Part shown: piece after piece, positions 20,631 through 29,120 of the stretch
Layout of the letters: every line of letters begins with the position of its first letter
How positions within the stretch are numbered: the first letter of the stretch is position 1
NCBI RefSeq assembly: GCF_014651515.1
Contig: NZ_BMXA01000001.1
Location: 682,001 to 746,000 of the forward strand
Length of the DNA stretch: 64,000 nucleotides
From: Arenicella chitinivorans
GTDB lineage: Bacteria; Pseudomonadota; Gammaproteobacteria; Arenicellales; Arenicellaceae
Reading direction: 5' to 3'
Program-made: the position numbers and the translations under genes
The notes under the pieces: model-generated
Told to the model about the DNA's origin: nothing
What the model saw: only the letters and a program-made list of their open reading frames with translations
Database searches by the model: none

Positions 20631-22877
20631 TTAGAACTTGTATGTCAGATCTACACCGTATACGCGGCCTTTGGCCAGTGGTGCAAAGCTACCACCCAAT
20701 GGAATCGGACCTAAGAATTCCGGTAACTGCGTGTCGCCACCATGCTTAACTTCGTCGGTTAAGTTCTTTCCGAAAATACCAAAAGACCAGCGGCCATTAG
20801 CGGATAAGAAGTCGATTCCAGCATTGAGAATAGCTTGTTCACCGATAAATCCAAGGTTGTTGTCAGTGTAAGCGGATTCATCTCGATACGCATAGGATAT
20901 GCGAGATACCGCGGTACCCCAGTCACCAACATCGGAGTCGAGCGTCAATCCAACACTGTAGGTCAATTCCGCAGCACGAGGTAAATCTAGGTTTTTATCA
21001 ACATCGTTGATCACGCCATCGCCATTCAGGTCAAATCGCACCGCGTCGTAACCTGGGTCGATGTAACCGAGCGATGCATTGAATACTAAGCGATCCGTCA
21101 GTGGGAACAATCCTTCGATCTCGAGGCCTGTTATTGTTGCATCGGCAGTGTTGCGAATTACCTGTACCACACCAGAAATTGGATCGGCCAAGTTGATCTC
21201 ACGTTGCATGTCGTCGATTTGGTTGTAGAAAATCGCGCCTGTGATGCGACCACCGTTGCGCAATGAGGTTTTGAAACCGGCTTCAAAATTGTCTACGGTT
21301 TCTTCATCGAACGGGCCTGGACCAAAATTCACGGTGTCAATGGCAGTGTTACGAAGGTTGTAACCACCAGAACGGAAACCGCGTGTCCAGTGCGCGTACA
21401 TCATGCTTGTGTCACTGAGGTTGTAGGTCACACCAATTTTTGGTGACACGTTACTCCAGCTCTTTTGGTCTTGAAAGTCGTATGGACACGTGCCATCAAT
21501 CACACTACATGGTGCATTGACATTGCGTACTAATGACGCGATGTCTGCTGACTTTTCTTCGTCGGTGTAACGCAATCCCAGATTGACCACCATTTGATCG
21601 GTCAAATCATAATCAAGCGAGGCGAAAAGCCCAAGCGTTTCAACCGAATAATCACCGCCACCGTCTTGCGTTAAGCCAAAAAACCCTGGTGGGGCCACAA
21701 CGCCGAGCAAGCGGCGATTCTCGTTGTACTTTAGGTCATTCTTAAAGTAGTACGCACCAAGGGTGAGCTGTGATCGATCTCCAACTTCACCTGAATAGCG
21801 AATTTCATTGCTGATTTGGTCGTTGTCGATGCCATTAGGAGAATGGAACAAGCTGATTGGCGTGGCGTCCACGTCCACCGAGCCCTCAGATTCCATTTTC
21901 CGGTAACCGAAAACATTGGTGATGGTGCCGTTATCGAGTTCATACTCGATGGTGCTACGGAAAAAATCGGATTGTAAATCGATGTACCCAGTTTCATCGA
22001 TAGACAAGTCAAATGAATCGCGATCAAAATCTGCGGCGCCATTGGCAATACCACTGCCATTACGGTGGTTTTGCGATGCTGGGCCGTGGCCCTCTGTCTC
22101 GAAGTAATCGTAGATAGCGGTAATGGAGAGTCGCTCAGTTGGAGTCCAAACCACCATCGGTCGAATCGCTAATGTGTCTGACTCGCCGTGTGCAGCCCCA
22201 GTAAACTGGTTGAAAAAATACCCATCATCTTTGTTACTGTAAACTGAGATTTTGGCAGCCAATGTGTCACTAACTGGACCACCGACTGTTCCTTGAAGGT
22301 AAACACTCGGCTCTTCACCGCCGGTTTCATAGGCGGCTTTGATCTTGCCACCGAACTCATCACCAGGTTTGGCCGAGTTCAACAACACCGCACCACCTGT
22401 GACGTTACGACCAAATAGCGTGCCCTGAGGACCGCGCAGTACTTCGATGCTCTCAAGATCGAACACGTCTAAGATAACGCCCGCGTTCGTGCCTAAATAG
22501 ACACCGTCAACGAAGGTACCGACGGTCGGGTCGATGCTTGGAATGGAACTATTAATGCCCAGGCCCCGAATTGAAAAGTTGGCGACGCTGCGCGACGTTC
22601 CAACATCGTCGAATGCCACGTTGGGTAACCCAACACTGAGACTTTCGATATCGCGAACTTTGAGCACATCAAGTTGATCTGCATTGAAGGCAGTCACCGC
22701 GATTGGAACATCAAGAATTGACTCCTCTCTCTTTCGTGCTGTGACCACGATTTCTTCTAGTAGTTTGGCACTGGCTCTGGATTCCTCCTGAGCGACTGCC
22801 GTCGGCGTACTGACCATAGCGGCTATGGCTGCGGAAACGGCAGACAGCCGGAATACCCAACTTAATGGTTTTTTCAT
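20631..22877 (-). CDS. TonB-dependent outer-membrane receptor, substrate unknown
   Basis: A 748-residue outer-membrane beta-barrel importer powered by TonB-ExbBD. The signal peptide ends near residue 29 (STPTAVAQEE). The TonB box region follows (LEEIVVTARKREESILDVPIAVTAF), then the plug domain (LPNVAFDDVG, SIRGLGINSSIPSIDPTVGTFVDGVYLG, LESIEVLRGPQGTLFGRNVTGGAV) and a 22-strand barrel ending in the usual aromatic residue (YGVDLTYKF). The plug is of the large 'ILDVP' group common in marine and sphingomonad-like bacteria; members import diverse organic compounds, and no siderophore signature is visible. A good RBS (AGGAGGA) precedes the ATG. It is a single gene; its substrate cannot be deduced from neighbours. 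Confidence 0.92.
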   Translation of the reverse strand: MKKPLSWVFRLSAVSAAIAAMVSTPTAVAQEESRASAKLLEEIVVTARKREESILDVPIAVTAFNADQLDVLKVRDIESLSVGLPNVAFDDVGTSRSVANFSIRGLGINSSIPSIDPTVGTFVDGVYLGTNAGVILDVFDLESIEVLRGPQGTLFGRNVTGGAVLLNSAKPGDEFGGKIKAAYETGGEEPSVYLQGTVGGPVSDTLAAKISVYSNKDDGYFFNQFTGAAHGESDTLAIRPMVVWTPTERLSITAIYDYFETEGHGPASQNHRNGSGIANGAADFDRDSFDLSIDETGYIDLQSDFFRSTIEYELDNGTITNVFGYRKMESEGSVDVDATPISLFHSPNGIDNDQISNEIRYSGEVGDRSQLTLGAYYFKNDLKYNENRRLLGVVAPPGFFGLTQDGGGDYSVETLGLFASLDYDLTDQMVVNLGLRYTDEEKSADIASLVRNVNAPCSVIDGTCPYDFQDQKSWSNVSPKIGVTYNLSDTSMMYAHWTRGFRSGGYNLRNTAIDTVNFGPGPFDEETVDNFEAGFKTSLRNGGRITGAIFYNQIDDMQREINLADPISGVVQVIRNTADATITGLEIEGLFPLTDRLVFNASLGYIDPGYDAVRFDLNGDGVINDVDKNLDLPRAAELTYSVGLTLDSDVGDWGTAVSRISYAYRDESAYTDNNLGFIGEQAILNAGIDFLSANGRWSFGIFGKNLTDEVKHGGDTQLPEFLGPIPLGGSFAPLAKGRVYGVDLTYKF

Positions 22878-23263
22878 AGTTCCTCCTCTGGATTAGGATT
22901 AATTCGTGGTGCTCATTCTTAGGTAGTTATACTGAGCTACGGTCAAGAATGTCTTAATTTCCTTAGGTTTGCAATGCCTCAGGATTATAGGGCTTATGCT
23001 TTGTGTGAATAACACTTTAAAAATAATCGGTTTCCAGTTGCTTTTGTGCGTTCGACTGTGGCTTGCACTTGTCCATTTTCTGTATTACGCTGGCGACTCT
23101 GACAGTCAATAGAAGTCTATGTGTTGGGAGCGCAAATTGGAGACTGGCTGTTGGAAAGCGTGGTTCGAATCGGTTTGTTTTGCCTGGGCAAGCGCGGAAG
23201 TACCAAATAATAAACGCAGAGTACCGACATACTCTGACTTCCAACACATAATGGGGTAACGAA
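22878..23263. other. Gene-free divergent promoter region (386 bases)
   Basis: Upstream regions of the receptor gene (minus) and the hemerythrin-like gene (plus). I see no credible small gene. A 10-bp inverted pair, TATGTGTTGG at 23118-23127 and CCAACACATA at 23241-23250, brackets the leader of the hemerythrin gene; it may be chance or a long-range leader-RNA stem. Confidence 0.5.
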
Positions 23264-23812
23264 ATGTTTGATTTCGTCGGAAAATTCTTTAAAGGGCGAC
23301 CGGAGAAGAAGGCAACTACGACCAAGGCTCAGGCACAAGCCAAAGCAGCAAAACGCCGACCTTCCGCAAGTCGCGGCACAACTGGCATCAAGTATGACGC
23401 GGCCTTAATTGACAATCTGGAACACGACCATGAACAGCTCGTTGAGTTGTTTGGCAAGGTTTGGAAAGAAGGATACGAGGCCAGCGATTTCGAAGCTTTA
23501 TCCGCCCATCTAGTGGAATTCAAAACGTTGTTCCAGAGTCACCTCCTTAAAGAGAACGTCAAGTTCTATGCTTACTTGGAACAGACGATGCGAACCGATT
23601 CACATTCCTTAAGTGTGGTTCGTGAATTTAGACGCGACATGAACGACATTGCCAATGCGGTCATCAGTTTTTGCAAAAAGTATGAACGTTCTGAATACAC
23701 CAAGGTCGCGAAAGACTCATTCAAAAAAGAATATCAAGGGATTGGTCAGGCCTTAGTTCGACGAGTTCAGCTCGAAGAGCGCGACCTCTACTCGTTATAC
23801 GCGCCCGTCTAA
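23264..23812 (+). CDS. Hemerythrin (HHE)-like domain protein
   Basis: A 182-residue cytoplasmic protein. Residues 1-42 are a basic, Ala/Lys-rich low-complexity leader; from about 45 a four-helix domain reads DNLEHDHEQLVELFGKVW, FKTLFQSHLLKENVKFYAYLE and RRVQLEERDLYSLY. His and Glu spaced over these helices resemble a hemerythrin-like HHE domain, which binds a di-iron centre for oxygen or NO sensing or storage. The metal ligand set is not complete by eye, so I call the domain and not the activity. A stem-loop follows the gene. It stands alone, upstream of the electron-transfer cluster, in the same direction. Confidence 0.65.
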   Translation: MFDFVGKFFKGRPEKKATTTKAQAQAKAAKRRPSASRGTTGIKYDAALIDNLEHDHEQLVELFGKVWKEGYEASDFEALSAHLVEFKTLFQSHLLKENVKFYAYLEQTMRTDSHSLSVVREFRRDMNDIANAVISFCKKYERSEYTKVAKDSFKKEYQGIGQALVRRVQLEERDLYSLYAPV

Positions 23813-23819
23813 TTCTGTC

Positions 23820-23848
23820 TCGGCAGCCCCGCGTTCAGGGTCTGCCGA
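23820..23848 (+). terminator. Stem-loop after the hemerythrin-like gene
   Basis: TCGGCAG / CTGCCGA 7-bp stem with a 15-base loop that itself has CCC and GGG able to pair. Only a poor T tract follows, so termination strength is uncertain. Confidence 0.4.
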
Positions 23849-24090
23849 CAAATTCGCTGTGTTCGATATTCACTTATTTTATATAGGAGGGCAGATTCTT
23901 ATAGCGTAATCCACTCAGTGAGTTGGTCTGTCATTAAGATTGTTCGCGCATCACTTTGACTCGAGGATGACGAACAGCGTTTTTGGTGATTAGGTCTGAG
24001 TAATCACTGAACTGGTTCAGGTGCCTTGTTTTGTAACCCTACATATACAAACTTGGCACACAAACTCCTACACCACCCATCGTTACTACC

Positions 24091-26013
24091 TTGGATACAA
24101 TTGTCATTGTTGGCGCTGGTCCAGCAGGCGTCAAAGCGGCTACACAATTGCTGGAAAAAAGCGAGCAGGTACAGGTTAAAATTTTCAACGGTGAGCGCGT
24201 TCTACCCTACAATCGCGCGAGACTGTCGTACTATCTGGCTGGTGAGATCGGCTTAAGCGATCTCGAAAACCGCCTGCCAGAGTCCGACGCCCGCTTACAG
24301 GAATATGATGGCTGTCACATTCGCCAAGTCGATACGCAGTCAAAAACCGTCATAGACGAGCACGGCCATGTTCATGAGTATGACCGTCTCATTATTGCGA
24401 CCGGCTCATCCGTCTCCACACCAGCAATTTTTGGCGATGACAAGTCCGGCGTATACAGTTTTCGTTCTCTGGACGATGCACAACGTTTGCTGCAACTCCG
24501 TGACGCCAACCAGGATGTGTTTGTAGTTGGTTCCGGCCCGCTAGGAATCGAAACGGCGCTGGCCATGAAAACCCAAACTAATCAGGTCTATCTGCAGGTA
24601 CGCAACAGCCTGTTTGCTAAGGGTCTGGACTCACATGCGAAGGGTGTATTGATTGACTATATACGCTCTAATGGCGTGATCGTACACGATCAGGTTTTAG
24701 TGGAGCGGATTCATGGCAATGGTCGTGTCACTGGCGTGCGATTGAGCGACGGGCGCGAAATCCCAGTTGAAATCGTAATTCTGTGTACCGGCATTTCACC
24801 GTTTGTCGAGTTGGCCAGCGCGGCAGGAATTGACGTCGAGCGCGGGATCGTGGTGGACGATTTTATGCAGACCAACTGCCCAAATGTTTACGCAATCGGT
24901 GAGTGTGCGGAACACGCCGGCACAACCTATGGTCTGGTGAGTCCCGGTTATGAACAGGCCGAAATCTGCGTCGATCATATATTGCATTCGCCACGTCGTT
25001 TCTCCGGCGCCAATAGCGAGCTGCAATTCCACTTTCGTGGATTCTCGAGTCAGGTGTTAGGCGCGCCAGAGCAGCCAGGTAATACTGTGCTTGTTTACCG
25101 CAATACGTTAAAAAATGTTTACCGCAAACTGGTGCTTGATGGGCGGCGGTTGATCGGCGCCACGATCATTGGTGATTGGGGCGAAGCAGGCCGAGTTGCG
25201 AGTCGGATTAAAACACGTAAACGCGTCAGCCGCAGTGCCATGCGATTGTTCGAAAAGCGTGGCAATCTCTGGAGTGAGCAGCGCATTTCGATTCTGGATC
25301 AGCCCGAGGACTACATCGTTTGTCTGTGTAAAAACGTGACGCGTGGTGAAATTTCAGCCTGCATGGAAAAAGGCTACCGCAGCCTGCCAGCGCTCGGTGA
25401 GCAATTACAGGCCGGTGTCACTTGCGGTTCGTGTCAGCCGTTATTGAAACACATGATAAAGGAGCCCGTGCCGAACCTGATCATGCGTCATTATCGCGCG
25501 ATTTTCATGGTGTCTATCCTGTCGGTATTGATTATTGGTCTCACGTTTATGGCCCCCAAACTGCCGTTCGAGCGCTCAGTTCAGTTTTCTTTCCAGTTCG
25601 AGAAAATTTGGTATGGCAGTGTTTACAAGCAAACAACAGGGTACGTGCTGCTGGGGTTGTGTGCACTCAGCGGTGCGTTGTCGTTGCGCAAACGTTGGAA
25701 AAAAGTCTCGGTTGGCAATCTCGACAACTGGCGGTTCGTGCACACGATTCTTGGCTTTGTGGCGTTGCTGGCATTGATTGTGCACACCGGCTTCCGGCTC
25801 GGGCAGAACCTCAGCTTTGCGTTGATGATGGTGTTCTTGTTGGCGACGCTAACCGGCTCGCTGGTGGGGATTTTTATGTCGCGAAATCATCATTGGACTG
25901 ATCTCAAATTAACTCAGTACCGGGCCTGGTGGTCGCGAGTCCATTACAGCTTGCTGTGGCTATTACCGGCACTGTTGATATTCCATATTTTTTCTTCGTA
26001 CTACTTCGCATAA
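24091..26013 (+). CDS. FAD/NAD(P) oxidoreductase fused to a [2Fe-2S] BFD domain and a di-haem-type membrane domain
   Basis: A 640-residue three-part fusion. Residues 1-310 form a pyridine-nucleotide-dependent flavoprotein of the NirB/rubredoxin-reductase type: FAD motif IVIVGAGPAGVKAA (3-16), NAD(P) motif VFVVGSGPLGIETAL near 145-160, and YAIGECAEH. Residues about 405-455 are a BFD-like [2Fe-2S] domain with C411, C413, C445 and C448 (CLC ... CGSC). The last 170 residues hold about five membrane helices; two of these carry HX13H pairs, H551/H565 and H618/H632, a pattern that in ferric-reductase-like proteins binds two haems b. I infer electron flow from NAD(P)H via FAD and Fe-S to membrane haems. 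The TTG at 24091 is the only start that keeps the complete FAD motif. It is followed by a multihaem cytochrome gene after 58 bases. Confidence 0.8.
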   Translation: MDTIVIVGAGPAGVKAATQLLEKSEQVQVKIFNGERVLPYNRARLSYYLAGEIGLSDLENRLPESDARLQEYDGCHIRQVDTQSKTVIDEHGHVHEYDRLIIATGSSVSTPAIFGDDKSGVYSFRSLDDAQRLLQLRDANQDVFVVGSGPLGIETALAMKTQTNQVYLQVRNSLFAKGLDSHAKGVLIDYIRSNGVIVHDQVLVERIHGNGRVTGVRLSDGREIPVEIVILCTGISPFVELASAAGIDVERGIVVDDFMQTNCPNVYAIGECAEHAGTTYGLVSPGYEQAEICVDHILHSPRRFSGANSELQFHFRGFSSQVLGAPEQPGNTVLVYRNTLKNVYRKLVLDGRRLIGATIIGDWGEAGRVASRIKTRKRVSRSAMRLFEKRGNLWSEQRISILDQPEDYIVCLCKNVTRGEISACMEKGYRSLPALGEQLQAGVTCGSCQPLLKHMIKEPVPNLIMRHYRAIFMVSILSVLIIGLTFMAPKLPFERSVQFSFQFEKIWYGSVYKQTTGYVLLGLCALSGALSLRKRWKKVSVGNLDNWRFVHTILGFVALLALIVHTGFRLGQNLSFALMMVFLLATLTGSLVGIFMSRNHHWTDLKLTQYRAWWSRVHYSLLWLLPALLIFHIFSSYYFA

Positions 26014-26071
26014 CCCCATGAGTGAAGGGACGATTTTCAAATGATAACAACAATAACCATAACGAGATTAC

Positions 26072-27466
26072 ATGCGGTTTTTTCAGCGGGTTGGATTCTT
26101 ACAATATGGCGCGGCAGTGACTCTGCTGCTGAGCGCGTTCCTGGGCTACAACTTATTTGTCGGAGGCAAAGATTTGTTTCTACCGGGTAGCAGTACCAAA
26201 GGACATCATCAAATCGAAGCGCAATGTGACGTGTGTCACGCAACGCCGTTTGATACCGACGATGCAATGCAGCAAGCTTGCTTGAGTTGTCACAGCGATG
26301 CGCTGCAAAAGGCCCGGGACACACACCCAATGAAAAAGTTTACGGATCCGCGCAATGCCGACCTGCTTGCGAGCCTTGACGCGACTCAGTGTGTCACTTG
26401 CCATATTGAACATTCGCCTGAGGTGACCGGTCAGTTTGGCGTCACGTTGCCACCGGATTTCTGCTACTACTGTCATCAGCAGATCGCAGAGGAGCGGCCC
26501 AGTCATGAAGAATTTGAGTTCAACACTTGTGGTAATGCAGGCTGCCATAATTTTCACGACAATAAAGCATTGTATGAATCGTTTTTGGCGAAGCATATTG
26601 ATAAACCCGCGTTGTTGTCCGAAGCGCGGTTGCGCGTGCCAAATGCCTTTGCGGTGTGGCAGCAGCGCAACCCAGATGCAGCACCGCTGCCTGCCACTGC
26701 GCATGATGGTAGTGAGATACCGGGAACTGAACCTGCCTTGATCTCGGCGTGGCAATCCAGCTTACATGCACAGGTCGGCGCGAACTGTTCTAGCTGCCAT
26801 GCAAACCCGTTAGCACGAACCGATTCCACGGCCTCTAGCTGGCGCAGCGGTCATGACCTGAGTGTGGCATCGTGTACGGACTGTCATACGGCTCAGGTCG
26901 ATGGTTTTAAGCAAGGCTTACACGGTATGCGGCTGGCCTCTGAGTTGCCACCTCTCAAGGTCTCTGACGCCCGTTTGCCCATGCATACGGACGCAGCCCA
27001 CAAGAGTCTCACTTGCAGTAGTTGTCACGATCCCCATCAGCCCGATTTACAGTTTGCTGCCACCGAAGCCTGCCTCGGTTGTCATGCTGATGAGCACAGT
27101 TTGAACTACACAAAATCGGCACACTCGACGCTTTGGCGTCAGGAAGTTGCTGGCCAAGTGGATGCCGGAGTGGGCGTCAGTTGTGCCAGTTGCCACATGC
27201 CGCGTATCAAGAAGGGCAAGCTGGTGTCGGTAGAACATAATCAGAGCCTCACTTTGGAGCCGAATAGCAAAATGATTCGGCCAGTCTGTCTTGAGTGTCA
27301 TGGACTGGAGTATTCGATCGCAGCATTGTCAGATCGAAATCTGATTCGACGAAATTTCTCTGGTGCGTTTGATGCAACGCATCCGAGCTTTGCACTGGTA
27401 CGGGAACGCATTGCGGCTAAAAAGGCGCAGAAACAGCGTGCACGTGCTACCAAATCCAACCAATGA
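26072..27466 (+). CDS. Membrane-anchored multihaem cytochrome c (about 11 haems)
   Basis: A 464-residue periplasmic electron carrier held by an N-terminal membrane helix (residues 10-30, uncleaved or signal-like). I count ten CXXCH haem sites (CDVCH, CLSCH, CVTCH, CYYCH, CSSCH, CTDCH, CSSCH, CLGCH, CASCH, CLECH) and one CX4CH site, CGNAGCH, at residues 153-159, as known from some cytochrome c3 proteins. Additional His residues can serve as distal ligands. The C-terminus is Lys/Arg/Ala-rich. The family is cytochrome c3 / NapC-NirT-like in layout but I recognise no catalytic site of nitrite or hydroxylamine reductases. It lies between the flavoprotein and the DUF3365 gene and overlaps or nearly touches the latter, so the three probably act together. 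Confidence 0.88.
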   Translation: MRFFQRVGFLQYGAAVTLLLSAFLGYNLFVGGKDLFLPGSSTKGHHQIEAQCDVCHATPFDTDDAMQQACLSCHSDALQKARDTHPMKKFTDPRNADLLASLDATQCVTCHIEHSPEVTGQFGVTLPPDFCYYCHQQIAEERPSHEEFEFNTCGNAGCHNFHDNKALYESFLAKHIDKPALLSEARLRVPNAFAVWQQRNPDAAPLPATAHDGSEIPGTEPALISAWQSSLHAQVGANCSSCHANPLARTDSTASSWRSGHDLSVASCTDCHTAQVDGFKQGLHGMRLASELPPLKVSDARLPMHTDAAHKSLTCSSCHDPHQPDLQFAATEACLGCHADEHSLNYTKSAHSTLWRQEVAGQVDAGVGVSCASCHMPRIKKGKLVSVEHNQSLTLEPNSKMIRPVCLECHGLEYSIAALSDRNLIRRNFSGAFDATHPSFALVRERIAAKKAQKQRARATKSNQ

Positions 27467-27483
27467 CTCACAGAGACCACCCT

Positions 27484-28050
27484 ATGAAAGCAAAATCGTT
27501 AATTCCTAGCATTTCTTCTTTGGCCCTATTGACTGTTCTCGGTGCTCACACCGCCGTCGCAGAGATCAGTCCACAACGTATGGCTGATGCGATCTATGCC
27601 GTGATCGAATCCGACCGAGCGGTGTATACCAAAAACGTGGTGAACCGCTTGCAAAATGAAGAGGAGGTCATTGATGCGCACGAGTATTGGGAAGATGAGC
27701 AAGCTTTGCCGTTACCCGCGCAAATGTTGCGTATGGGGGCAGAAGAAGTTGCAGAAAAAGATCTGGGCATCACGTATGCACTATTGAGCACCTGGCCGAT
27801 CAATAAACAAAATGAGGCAGTCACTGAGATCGAAAAGAAAGGCATGGAGTTTATTGTTGCGAACCCGACACAGCGTTTTTATTCCGAAGAAGTACTGGCT
27901 GGCGAGCGGTATTTTACCGCGATCTATCAAGACATCGCGGTTTCCGATGCCTGCGTAAAATGCCACAATGATCATTTGGATAGCCCGCGCGACGATTTTA
28001 AAATAGGTGATGTCATGGGCGGCGTGGTGCTGCGTATTAAGCTCGATTAG
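27484..28050 (+). CDS. DUF3365 (Tll0287-like) periplasmic haem protein
   Basis: A protein of about 188 residues with a signal peptide ending at about HTAVAE and a single haem site CVKCHNDH near the C-terminus, followed by DSPRDDFKIGDVMGGVVLRI. This end is typical of DUF3365 proteins, a PAS-like haem c fold also found as a sensor input domain. The frame opens with an ATG at 27463 overlapping the cytochrome stop (ATGA), but the ATG at 27484 starts directly at the signal peptide MKAKSLIP and is preferred. It may be the redox partner, acceptor or a sensor of the upstream electron-transfer pair; the context suggests an electron-transfer role. Confidence 0.85.
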   Translation: MKAKSLIPSISSLALLTVLGAHTAVAEISPQRMADAIYAVIESDRAVYTKNVVNRLQNEEEVIDAHEYWEDEQALPLPAQMLRMGAEEVAEKDLGITYALLSTWPINKQNEAVTEIEKKGMEFIVANPTQRFYSEEVLAGERYFTAIYQDIAVSDACVKCHNDHLDSPRDDFKIGDVMGGVVLRIKLD

Positions 28051-28118: not shown

Positions 28119-29120
28119 ATGATCCAAGCTTATGCGGCGTTTGAGCCTAAAGGGGAACTCAATCCCTTTGAATATGATCCAGGTGCATTGGCGCCAAACG
28201 ATGTGGAAATTAACGTTGAGTATTGTGGCATTTGCCACAGCGACCTCAGTGTATTGGACAGCGATTGGGGCAAAACGGCGTACCCAATGGTGCCCGGTCA
28301 CGAAGTGGTTGGAACCATAGGCCAAGTCGGTGACCAGGTTCAGGGGGTTGAGGTCGGTGATTATGTCGGCCTTGGGTGGCATGCTGGGTATTGCGATCAT
28401 TGTGCATTGTGTGACAGCGGTGACCATAACCTCTGTCAACAAAGCCAAGCGACCATCATCGGTCGTCACGGCGGTTTTGCAGACAAAGTTCGGGCTGCGG
28501 CAAACAGTGTGGTCAAACTACCGAATGGCCTGGACCCGAAATCCGCTGGGCCTTTGTTTTGTGGTGGTATTACGGTGTTCAACCCGCTCGTCCAATACGC
28601 CGTGAGACCGACCGCCAAAGTCGGCGTGATTGGCATTGGTGGTCTTGGGCATATGGCGTTGCAGTTTCTCAACGCGTGGGGTTGTGAGGTCACCGCGTTC
28701 ACCTCCAGCGAGAGTAAGCGTGACGAGTTGAATCGCATCGGTGCACATCATATTTTAAATTCACGTGACCCGTCTGCGCTGAAACAGGCGGCGAGACGAT
28801 TTGACCTGATTATTTCCACGGTAAACGTCTCGTTGGACTGGAATGCTTATCTCGGTACGTTGGCACCACGTGGACGTTTGCATTTTGTTGGTGCTGCGCT
28901 GGAGCCTCTAAATGTCGGTGTGATGAATTTGATGTTTACACAGCTCAGCGTGTCGGCCTCGCCAATAGGCAGCCCGGCAACCATTCGTCAAATGCTTGAT
29001 TTTGCCAACTTGCACGATATTCGGCCCATTATTGAGACCTATAAGTTCGATCAGGTGAACGATGCCATCGCGCGGCTCCGTAGCGGCGAAGCGCGATATC
29101 GAGTCGTGTTAGAGCGATAG
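28119..29120 (+). CDS. Zinc-dependent NAD(P) alcohol/aldehyde dehydrogenase (cinnamyl-alcohol type)
   Basis: A 333-residue medium-chain dehydrogenase/reductase of the YahK/AdhC-like group, which interconverts alcohols and aldehydes in the cytoplasm. The catalytic zinc site is seen in CGICHSDLSV and PGHEVVGTI; the structural zinc loop has Cys residues in YCDHCALCDSGDHNLC. The cofactor-binding motif is GVIGIGGLGHMALQF; the following TSSESKR suggests preference for NADP(H). The length is slightly short for the family. It starts 68 bases after the DUF3365 gene and is 2 bases before the EVE gene. A role in detoxifying aldehydes is possible. Confidence 0.88.
   Translation: MIQAYAAFEPKGELNPFEYDPGALAPNDVEINVEYCGICHSDLSVLDSDWGKTAYPMVPGHEVVGTIGQVGDQVQGVEVGDYVGLGWHAGYCDHCALCDSGDHNLCQQSQATIIGRHGGFADKVRAAANSVVKLPNGLDPKSAGPLFCGGITVFNPLVQYAVRPTAKVGVIGIGGLGHMALQFLNAWGCEVTAFTSSESKRDELNRIGAHHILNSRDPSALKQAARRFDLIISTVNVSLDWNAYLGTLAPRGRLHFVGAALEPLNVGVMNLMFTQLSVSASPIGSPATIRQMLDFANLHDIRPIIETYKFDQVNDAIARLRSGEARYRVVLER

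Follow-up and report, generated by a model that had tools for sequence, protein, structure and literature searches.

Organization of the A-B-C locus

The DNA analyzed (the window) was a stretch of 64,000 nt from the 4.03-Mb genome of Arenicella chitinivorans, positions 682001-746000. It contained three plus-strand open reading frames, designated genes A, B and C, which are listed below with the features discussed in the text.

23264..23812, + strand: hemerythrin-domain protein, 182 aa (PF01814, E 5.8e-9), separated from A by a 278-base gap
24091..26013, + strand: gene A, 640 aa; predicted NAD(P)H/FAD module, BFD [2Fe-2S] domain and five-helix membrane domain with two HX13H pairs
25321..25434, + strand: span of the [2Fe-2S] ligand cysteines C411, C413, C445 and C448 of A (Fer2_BFD 409-458; invariant 25/25)
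25741..25986, + strand: span of the candidate membrane haem-b ligands H551, H565, H618 and H632 of A (predicted helices 544-566 and 605-637; invariant 25/25)
26072..27466, + strand: gene B, 464 aa; N-terminally anchored 11-haem cytochrome c, a 5-haem c3/c7-like half followed by a 6-haem half resembling HAO/NrfA
27463..28050, + strand: gene C, 195 aa; exported mono-haem DUF3365/Tll0287 (sCache_heme) protein

The start of A was a TTG, the earliest start codon past an in-frame stop at 24034. The gap between A and B was 58 bases, B and C overlapped by 4 bases, and C may alternatively start at Met-8, which by eye gave a cleaner signal peptide. No terminator-like plus-strand site was found in the A-B or B-C junction, which is weak evidence given that the scan returned 10 sites in the region against 5.6 expected. 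The three-gene module proposed in an earlier note on this DNA was borne out in its reading frames, gap, overlap, domains and haem motifs.

Upstream of A, from 22903 to 24861, no FNR/DNR-type box was matched with up to two mismatches, and an Rfam scan of the window and of loci L051, L062 and L107 gave no match at gathering thresholds. The sequence TTGATNNNNATCAA, with up to two mismatches, occurred at 51 sites in the whole window, where 34.6 were expected and none of 100 shuffles reached that count; none of these sites was immediately upstream of A. The longest block identical across five aligned upstream regions of the hemerythrin-linked subtype (the window, L044, L045, L046 and L068) was ACCCTAC (24036-24042), about 50 bases 5′ of A. 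Directly downstream of C, at 28119-29120, lay a gene for the NADPH-dependent aldehyde reductase Ahr (505 bits, cut-off 470), a relative of which was found among the clustered neighbourhoods in L044 alone.

Gene A joins a NirB-type flavin module to a membrane domain

Pfam analysis of A identified Pyr_redox_2 (E 1.6e-52) and Fer2_BFD (E 3.1e-10) which, with the four ligand cysteines present, make up a NirB-type NAD(P)H/FAD-BFD module. The best Foldseek matches of the A model were ferredoxin-reductase-type flavoproteins such as BphA4. Against the NirB model TIGR02374, positions 1-467 of 794 were matched at 321 bits (cut-off 578). The FAD/NAD(P)H module and BFD domain are therefore common to A and NirB, the large subunit of assimilatory nitrite reductase, whereas A has a membrane domain in place of model positions 468-794. 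Misannotation of A as NirB was rejected, as this second half was unmatched.

The membrane domain was predicted to contain helices at 468-487, 510-535, 544-566, 574-598 and 605-637, the protein ending just past the fifth. Cytochrome-b-type Pfam matches to this part were weak and below cut-off. Both HX13H pairs (H551/H565 and H618/H632), like the four cysteines, were invariant in all 25 aligned homologues, and from these ligands we infer haem b in the domain. Their invariance also speaks against a membrane part lacking haem, which the earlier note had named as a way for its proposal to fail.

Two HX13H pairs across two membrane helices are the hallmark of the NOX/ferric reductase family, whose members have a ferric-reductase membrane model together with a C-terminal FNR-type dehydrogenase. 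The two pairs were present in A; the combination of membrane model and C-terminal dehydrogenase was not, and the ferric-reductase Pfam model gave no match in A at E up to 0.1. The membrane part, called ferric-reductase-like in the earlier note, is thus so in its ligand pattern and not by Pfam match. In MsrQ-like, NOX and STEAP proteins a haem-binding membrane domain can pass NAD(P)H electrons outward, according to the available part of PMC8238504, and A would resemble them in this respect. It differs in its dehydrogenase, which is of NirB type and N-terminal, and in its likely acceptor, an 11-haem cytochrome.

The HX13H pattern that A has in common with ferric reductases would also suit an envelope reductase of ferric iron or another metal, which would serve to supply iron or to send electrons outward in the manner of ferric reductases and multihaem metal-reducing systems. 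A TonB-dependent receptor gene at 20631-22877, with relatives near A in L044, L046 and L068, points the same way. The receptor gene is nevertheless on the opposite strand, L045 has no relative of it close to A, and the receptor cluster is absent from the remaining clustered neighbourhoods, so that a metal-reductase role is considered very improbable. In L051 a haem protein with four motifs was encoded a few genes from the module.

Gene B encodes an eleven-haem cytochrome with invariant histidines

B contained ten CXXCH motifs and one CX4CH (CGNAGCH, residue 153), eleven in total, behind a single N-terminal helix as membrane anchor. The CX4CH probably marks a genuine haem site, because the B protein of L072 has a CXXCH at that position and no CX4CH, its total still being eleven. 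Exactly 22 histidines were invariant in 25/25 aligned loci, 11 belonging to the haem motifs and 11 lying elsewhere; a chance array of motifs was rejected on this ground. In the simplest reading, the equality of haems and additional invariant histidines suggests that all 11 haems are bis-His ligated and that B is a wire and not an enzyme, and it argues against an open catalytic haem site.

By Pfam, the first half of B resembled cytochromes c3/c7. Structural alignment of the second half with 36 chains gave Z 4.4-8.1 for hydroxylamine oxidoreductase (HAO), octahaem nitrite reductases and NrfA, a range also reached by common arrangements and including several rows at rmsd 15-17. For residues 212-432 against HAO structures the values were, for example, Z 7.6-7.9 and rmsd 4.0-4.2 over 189-201 aligned residues. 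A profile of B likewise gave a local match to these three families around CASCHMPR. B is set apart from them by its 11 motifs, its fused 5-haem c3/c7-like half and its other invariant histidines, as many as there are haems. NrfA contains a CXXCK motif, and B has none. Plain Foldseek with the B model, which was poor at residues 37-164, gave three rows at chance level (E 7-8) and no evidence of a new fold.

Gene C encodes a stand-alone DUF3365 protein

C matched PF11845 (Tll0287-like, E 4e-18) and carried one CXXCH, at residue 164, which places it among the DUF3365/Tll0287 (sCache_heme) proteins. As described in the available part of the preprint PMC12889525, such proteins combine PF11845 with a CXXCH and may be stand-alone and exported, as is C. 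The C protein of the window has only two cysteines, both in the CXXCH; the further Cys that serves as axial ligand in the redox subtype, including Tll0287 and the Pseudomonas putida protein, is absent. By their positions, the extra cysteines of C homologues would belong to signal sequences, lipid anchors or N termini extended too far. At E 0.1, no PDB chain was reached with a profile built from 23 C homologues.

Two results in the accessible text of PMC12889525 bear on the ligand of such a haem. A Cys-less DUF3365 member of P. azotoformans bound NO tightly and released it slowly, and the P. putida protein did not gain tight NO binding when its Cys was removed. The same text assigns a redox role to stand-alone DUF3365 proteins and NO binding to DUF3365 domains fused to signalling modules. 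C could on this basis be a periplasmic NO or redox sensor that A and B keep poised, in keeping with the absence of a third Cys from its mature domain. It has no output domain, however; no kinase or chemoreceptor occurred among the identified neighbour clusters of at least five members, and an 11-haem wire would be costly for a sensor. A sensory role is accordingly rated highly implausible.

The A-B-C set is a recurrent module

Searches of other genomes placed C after B in 29/29 loci that carry B. All or part of A preceded B in 28/28 loci whose contig extends to that side. The 29 loci were the window, L044-L048, L050-L065, L067, L068, L072, L073, L105, L112 and L113. A was incomplete at contig ends in L072 and L105 and partly recognized in L112, and the contig of L113 ended inside B. 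Alignments omitted L049 and L066 (contig ends) and L068 (a near-duplicate of the window with C cut after 130 aa), except that one A alignment retained L066; several contigs were identical under more than one identifier (L006/L009/L068, L007/L011/L046 and L008/L012/L045). Tree distances of A, B and C correlated pairwise (r 0.80, 0.72 and 0.67; 0/1000 permutations each). Adjacency peculiar to one genome, the other weakness that the earlier note had allowed for, was rejected, as the order was kept across the 29 loci and the set recurred in the neighbourhoods of other genomes. These data establish A-B-C as a real, recurrent module with C as its constant last partner. As the earlier note had supposed, no description or name of the module was found in the open-licence literature, and it is apparently previously undescribed.

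In the order of the window, 7 of 109 genomes (8 loci) matched A beyond its NirB part, and an eighth, G050, matched the NirB part alone. In an even draw of 274 genomes from the class of the window, A was found in at least 21 (E 1e-60, match extending to residue 639, up to four candidates scored per genome) and B in 22, about 8% (E 1e-40); A of the 22nd B-positive genome, G156, was cut by a contig end (L105). These 22 genomes bear 17 family labels, to which G489 and G508, the latter from outside the class, add two, for a span of 19. A phylum-wide draw yielded the BFD-membrane part in at least 3 of 398 genomes (E 1e-15, up to seven candidates scored per genome), that of the window included, which indicates that the module is uncommon across the phylum. 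The 1.7-Mb genome G287 held a second, diverged A-B-C copy (L112:5766-8338), in which C followed B and a recognizable piece of A preceded it.

Oxygen- and NO-binding proteins adjoin the module

A gene for an O2/NO-binding protein adjoined the module in 22/29 loci, encoding a globin in 13, a truncated globin in 3 and a hemerythrin in 6, and was absent in the other 7. As globins and hemerythrin are unrelated, one and the same role seems to be taken by different proteins. Upstream of A, the hemerythrin gene occupied the same place in the window, L044, L045, L046, L068 and L073. All of these but L068 formed one clade of the A tree (support 1.0); L068 was not in the tree and was placed with them by 91% identity. 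Genome G013 held both subtypes, the hemerythrin-linked L046 and the ANTAR-linked L049.

Outside the clade of the window, a frequent order was ANTAR gene, A, B, C, small cytochrome c and globin, with NrtA-NrtB-NrtC-like genes near. The small cytochrome, of CBB3 type, followed C in 12/29 loci. Of 30 loci (the 29 B-bearing loci and L049; L066 and L113, both of genome G374, counted once), 9 had an ANTAR gene no more than 3 kb upstream of A. Six of the nine adjoined A on the same strand, one had a porin gene between, and two were divergent. NrtABC-like genes occurred within 8 kb of the module in 7 loci, and in G153 napA (1564 bits, cut-off 904) lay about 9 kb 3′ of A. There, a nap periplasmic nitrate reductase cluster (L111:4549-7059) followed an A-B-C-globin-NrtABC-like block.

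The globin genes, one or two genes past C in the 13 loci, recall the NasS-NasT-controlled operon narK-bjgb-flp-nasC of Bradyrhizobium. In the portion of PMC4724949 available, NasC and the single-domain globin Bjgb are proposed to receive electrons from Flp, the FAD/NAD(P)H protein of that operon. A-B-C would resemble that system, in which an NAD(P)H flavoprotein regulated by nitrate adjoins a globin, NasT exerts control, and NO arising from nitrate assimilation is disposed of. By analogy, electrons might flow inward to cytosolic nitrate or nitrite reductases, or the flavin of A might serve the cytosolic globin directly. Such schemes have no need for the membrane haems, B or C, which are the most constant parts of the module, and A has an NAD(P)H-binding module of its own; both schemes are for these reasons rated quite improbable. 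As far as the same part of PMC4724949 describes them, Flp and Bjgb are cytosolic and the operon is without membrane haems, multihaem cytochrome or DUF3365 protein.

The module goes with nitrate use

Among the 274 genomes of the class draw, an NrtA-like gene was present in 20/22 B-positive and 37/252 B-negative genomes (p 2e-13), an ANTAR gene in 19/22 and 66/252 (p 3e-8) and a NasA-like gene in 14/22 and 73/252 (p 0.001), by Fisher tests that ignore kinship. With the genus of the window excluded, the B-positive counts were 17/19, 16/19 and 11/19, respectively (p 2e-11, 7e-7 and 0.01, kinship again ignored). NrtA, NrtB, NasA and NasT were named by Pfam family and context, none passing a curated NCBIfam cut-off, whereas those named NirB and NapA passed theirs. 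G160, G287, G489 and G508 gave no NrtA-like match at E 1e-80, and 8/22 B-positive genomes gave no NasA-like match. Some NasA-negative genomes had other nitrate enzymes, namely nap in G153 and a molybdopterin reductase of another kind behind NirB-type genes in G234. The latter enzyme, which is unlike the nitrate reductase of the window genome, was encoded in a row (L106:7893-13026) with a protein of NirB size and a small one resembling ferredoxins.

No ANTAR or nitrate gene was adjacent to the module in the window, which therefore does not belong to a NasT-linked cluster. The nas-type operon of its genome, with genes for ANTAR, NrtABC-like, porin, NirB, NirD-like and molybdopterin reductase proteins, was on another contig (L074). 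For the subtype of the window the nitrate link is thus one of family and not of locus.

The available text of PMC3369931 gives the ANTAR target form as tandem hairpins with AxxGxx hexaloops. The upstream regions of A from 27 loci included 5 with such hairpins predicted, where 0.5 were expected, and 22 without, the window among them. They were present in two of six nas/Nrt control leaders scored and absent from the other four; the nas leader L108 was outside this set. A stricter hairpin rule retained 5 of 26 upstream regions, partly from other loci (L059 instead of L061).

The A-B-C family goes with nitrate use, as seen in co-occurrence, ANTAR genes and NrtABC-like neighbours, and a nitrogen-oxide role for it is, on these sequence grounds, slightly favoured. 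Export of NAD(P)H electrons to the periplasm might also take place with no nitrogen-oxide substrate, acting as a redox valve or as a bypass from NADH to cytochrome c, in which a terminal oxidase would receive the electrons by way of C or of the small cytochrome c. The CBB3-type cytochrome after C would fit such a bypass, as would the absence of nitrate neighbours from the subtype of the window and the term redox proteins, applied to stand-alone DUF3365 members in the accessible part of PMC12889525. This general function would leave the NrtA-like counts, the upstream ANTAR genes and the NrtABC-like neighbours unexplained, and is judged unlikely.

Proposed mechanism

Taken together, A, B and C probably form a trans-envelope electron conduit from NAD(P)H to the periplasm. 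The conduit put forward in the earlier note agrees, as an inference, with the gene order, the parts, the predicted topology and the invariant ligands; what that note missed was the context of nitrate uptake, ANTAR genes and O2/NO-binding proteins. Cofactor loading, direction of electron flow, complex formation, substrate and end acceptor are deduced from the predicted proteins and their gene context.

In the proposed pathway, the FAD of A would be reduced by NAD(P)H and would pass electrons to the BFD [2Fe-2S] cluster of the same protein. From there they would enter two stacked b haems, one held by H551/H618 on the cytosolic side and the other by H565/H632 on the periplasmic side, a placement that follows from the predicted helices with the N-terminal domains inside. 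The b haems would thereby span the membrane between the [2Fe-2S] cluster and B, so that A would work as NOX does without being a member of that family. The anchored 11-haem wire B would then deliver electrons to the periplasmic haem of C, and the small cytochrome c present in 12/29 loci would perhaps be a further acceptor.

Reducing power supplied to the periplasm in this way could dispose of a reactive product of nitrate or nitrite metabolism, NO being the likeliest, with NO or O2 on the cytosolic side left to the linked globin or hemerythrin. That NO is the final target of the module is somewhat doubtful, in view of the redox role assigned to stand-alone members and the failed Cys removal in P. 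putida. A more specific form is fairly unlikely: NO (or nitrite) in the periplasm would be bound and reduced at the Cys-less haem of C with electrons from A and B, and the cytosolic globin or hemerythrin would complete a reductase or scavenging system protecting both sides of the membrane. For the preferred reading as a whole, in which NAD(P)H electrons are exported to the periplasm to deal with nitrogen oxides, the chances are about even.

Nitrate metabolism is commonly depicted as located in the cytosol (Nas) or driven by quinol (Nap). The proposed conduit, if true, would add to it an exit from NAD(P)H to the periplasm. The module would also provide a testable set of partners for stand-alone DUF3365 proteins, and the flavin half of NirB would have found a second use as the entry part of a membrane conduit.

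A variant of A was found outside the class, in G508 (L072, 1-3723), where the start of the gene was missing at the contig end. In this protein an extra FNR-type flavin domain (PF00970, PF00175) lay between the BFD domain and the membrane helices, again indicating NAD(P)H as the donor.
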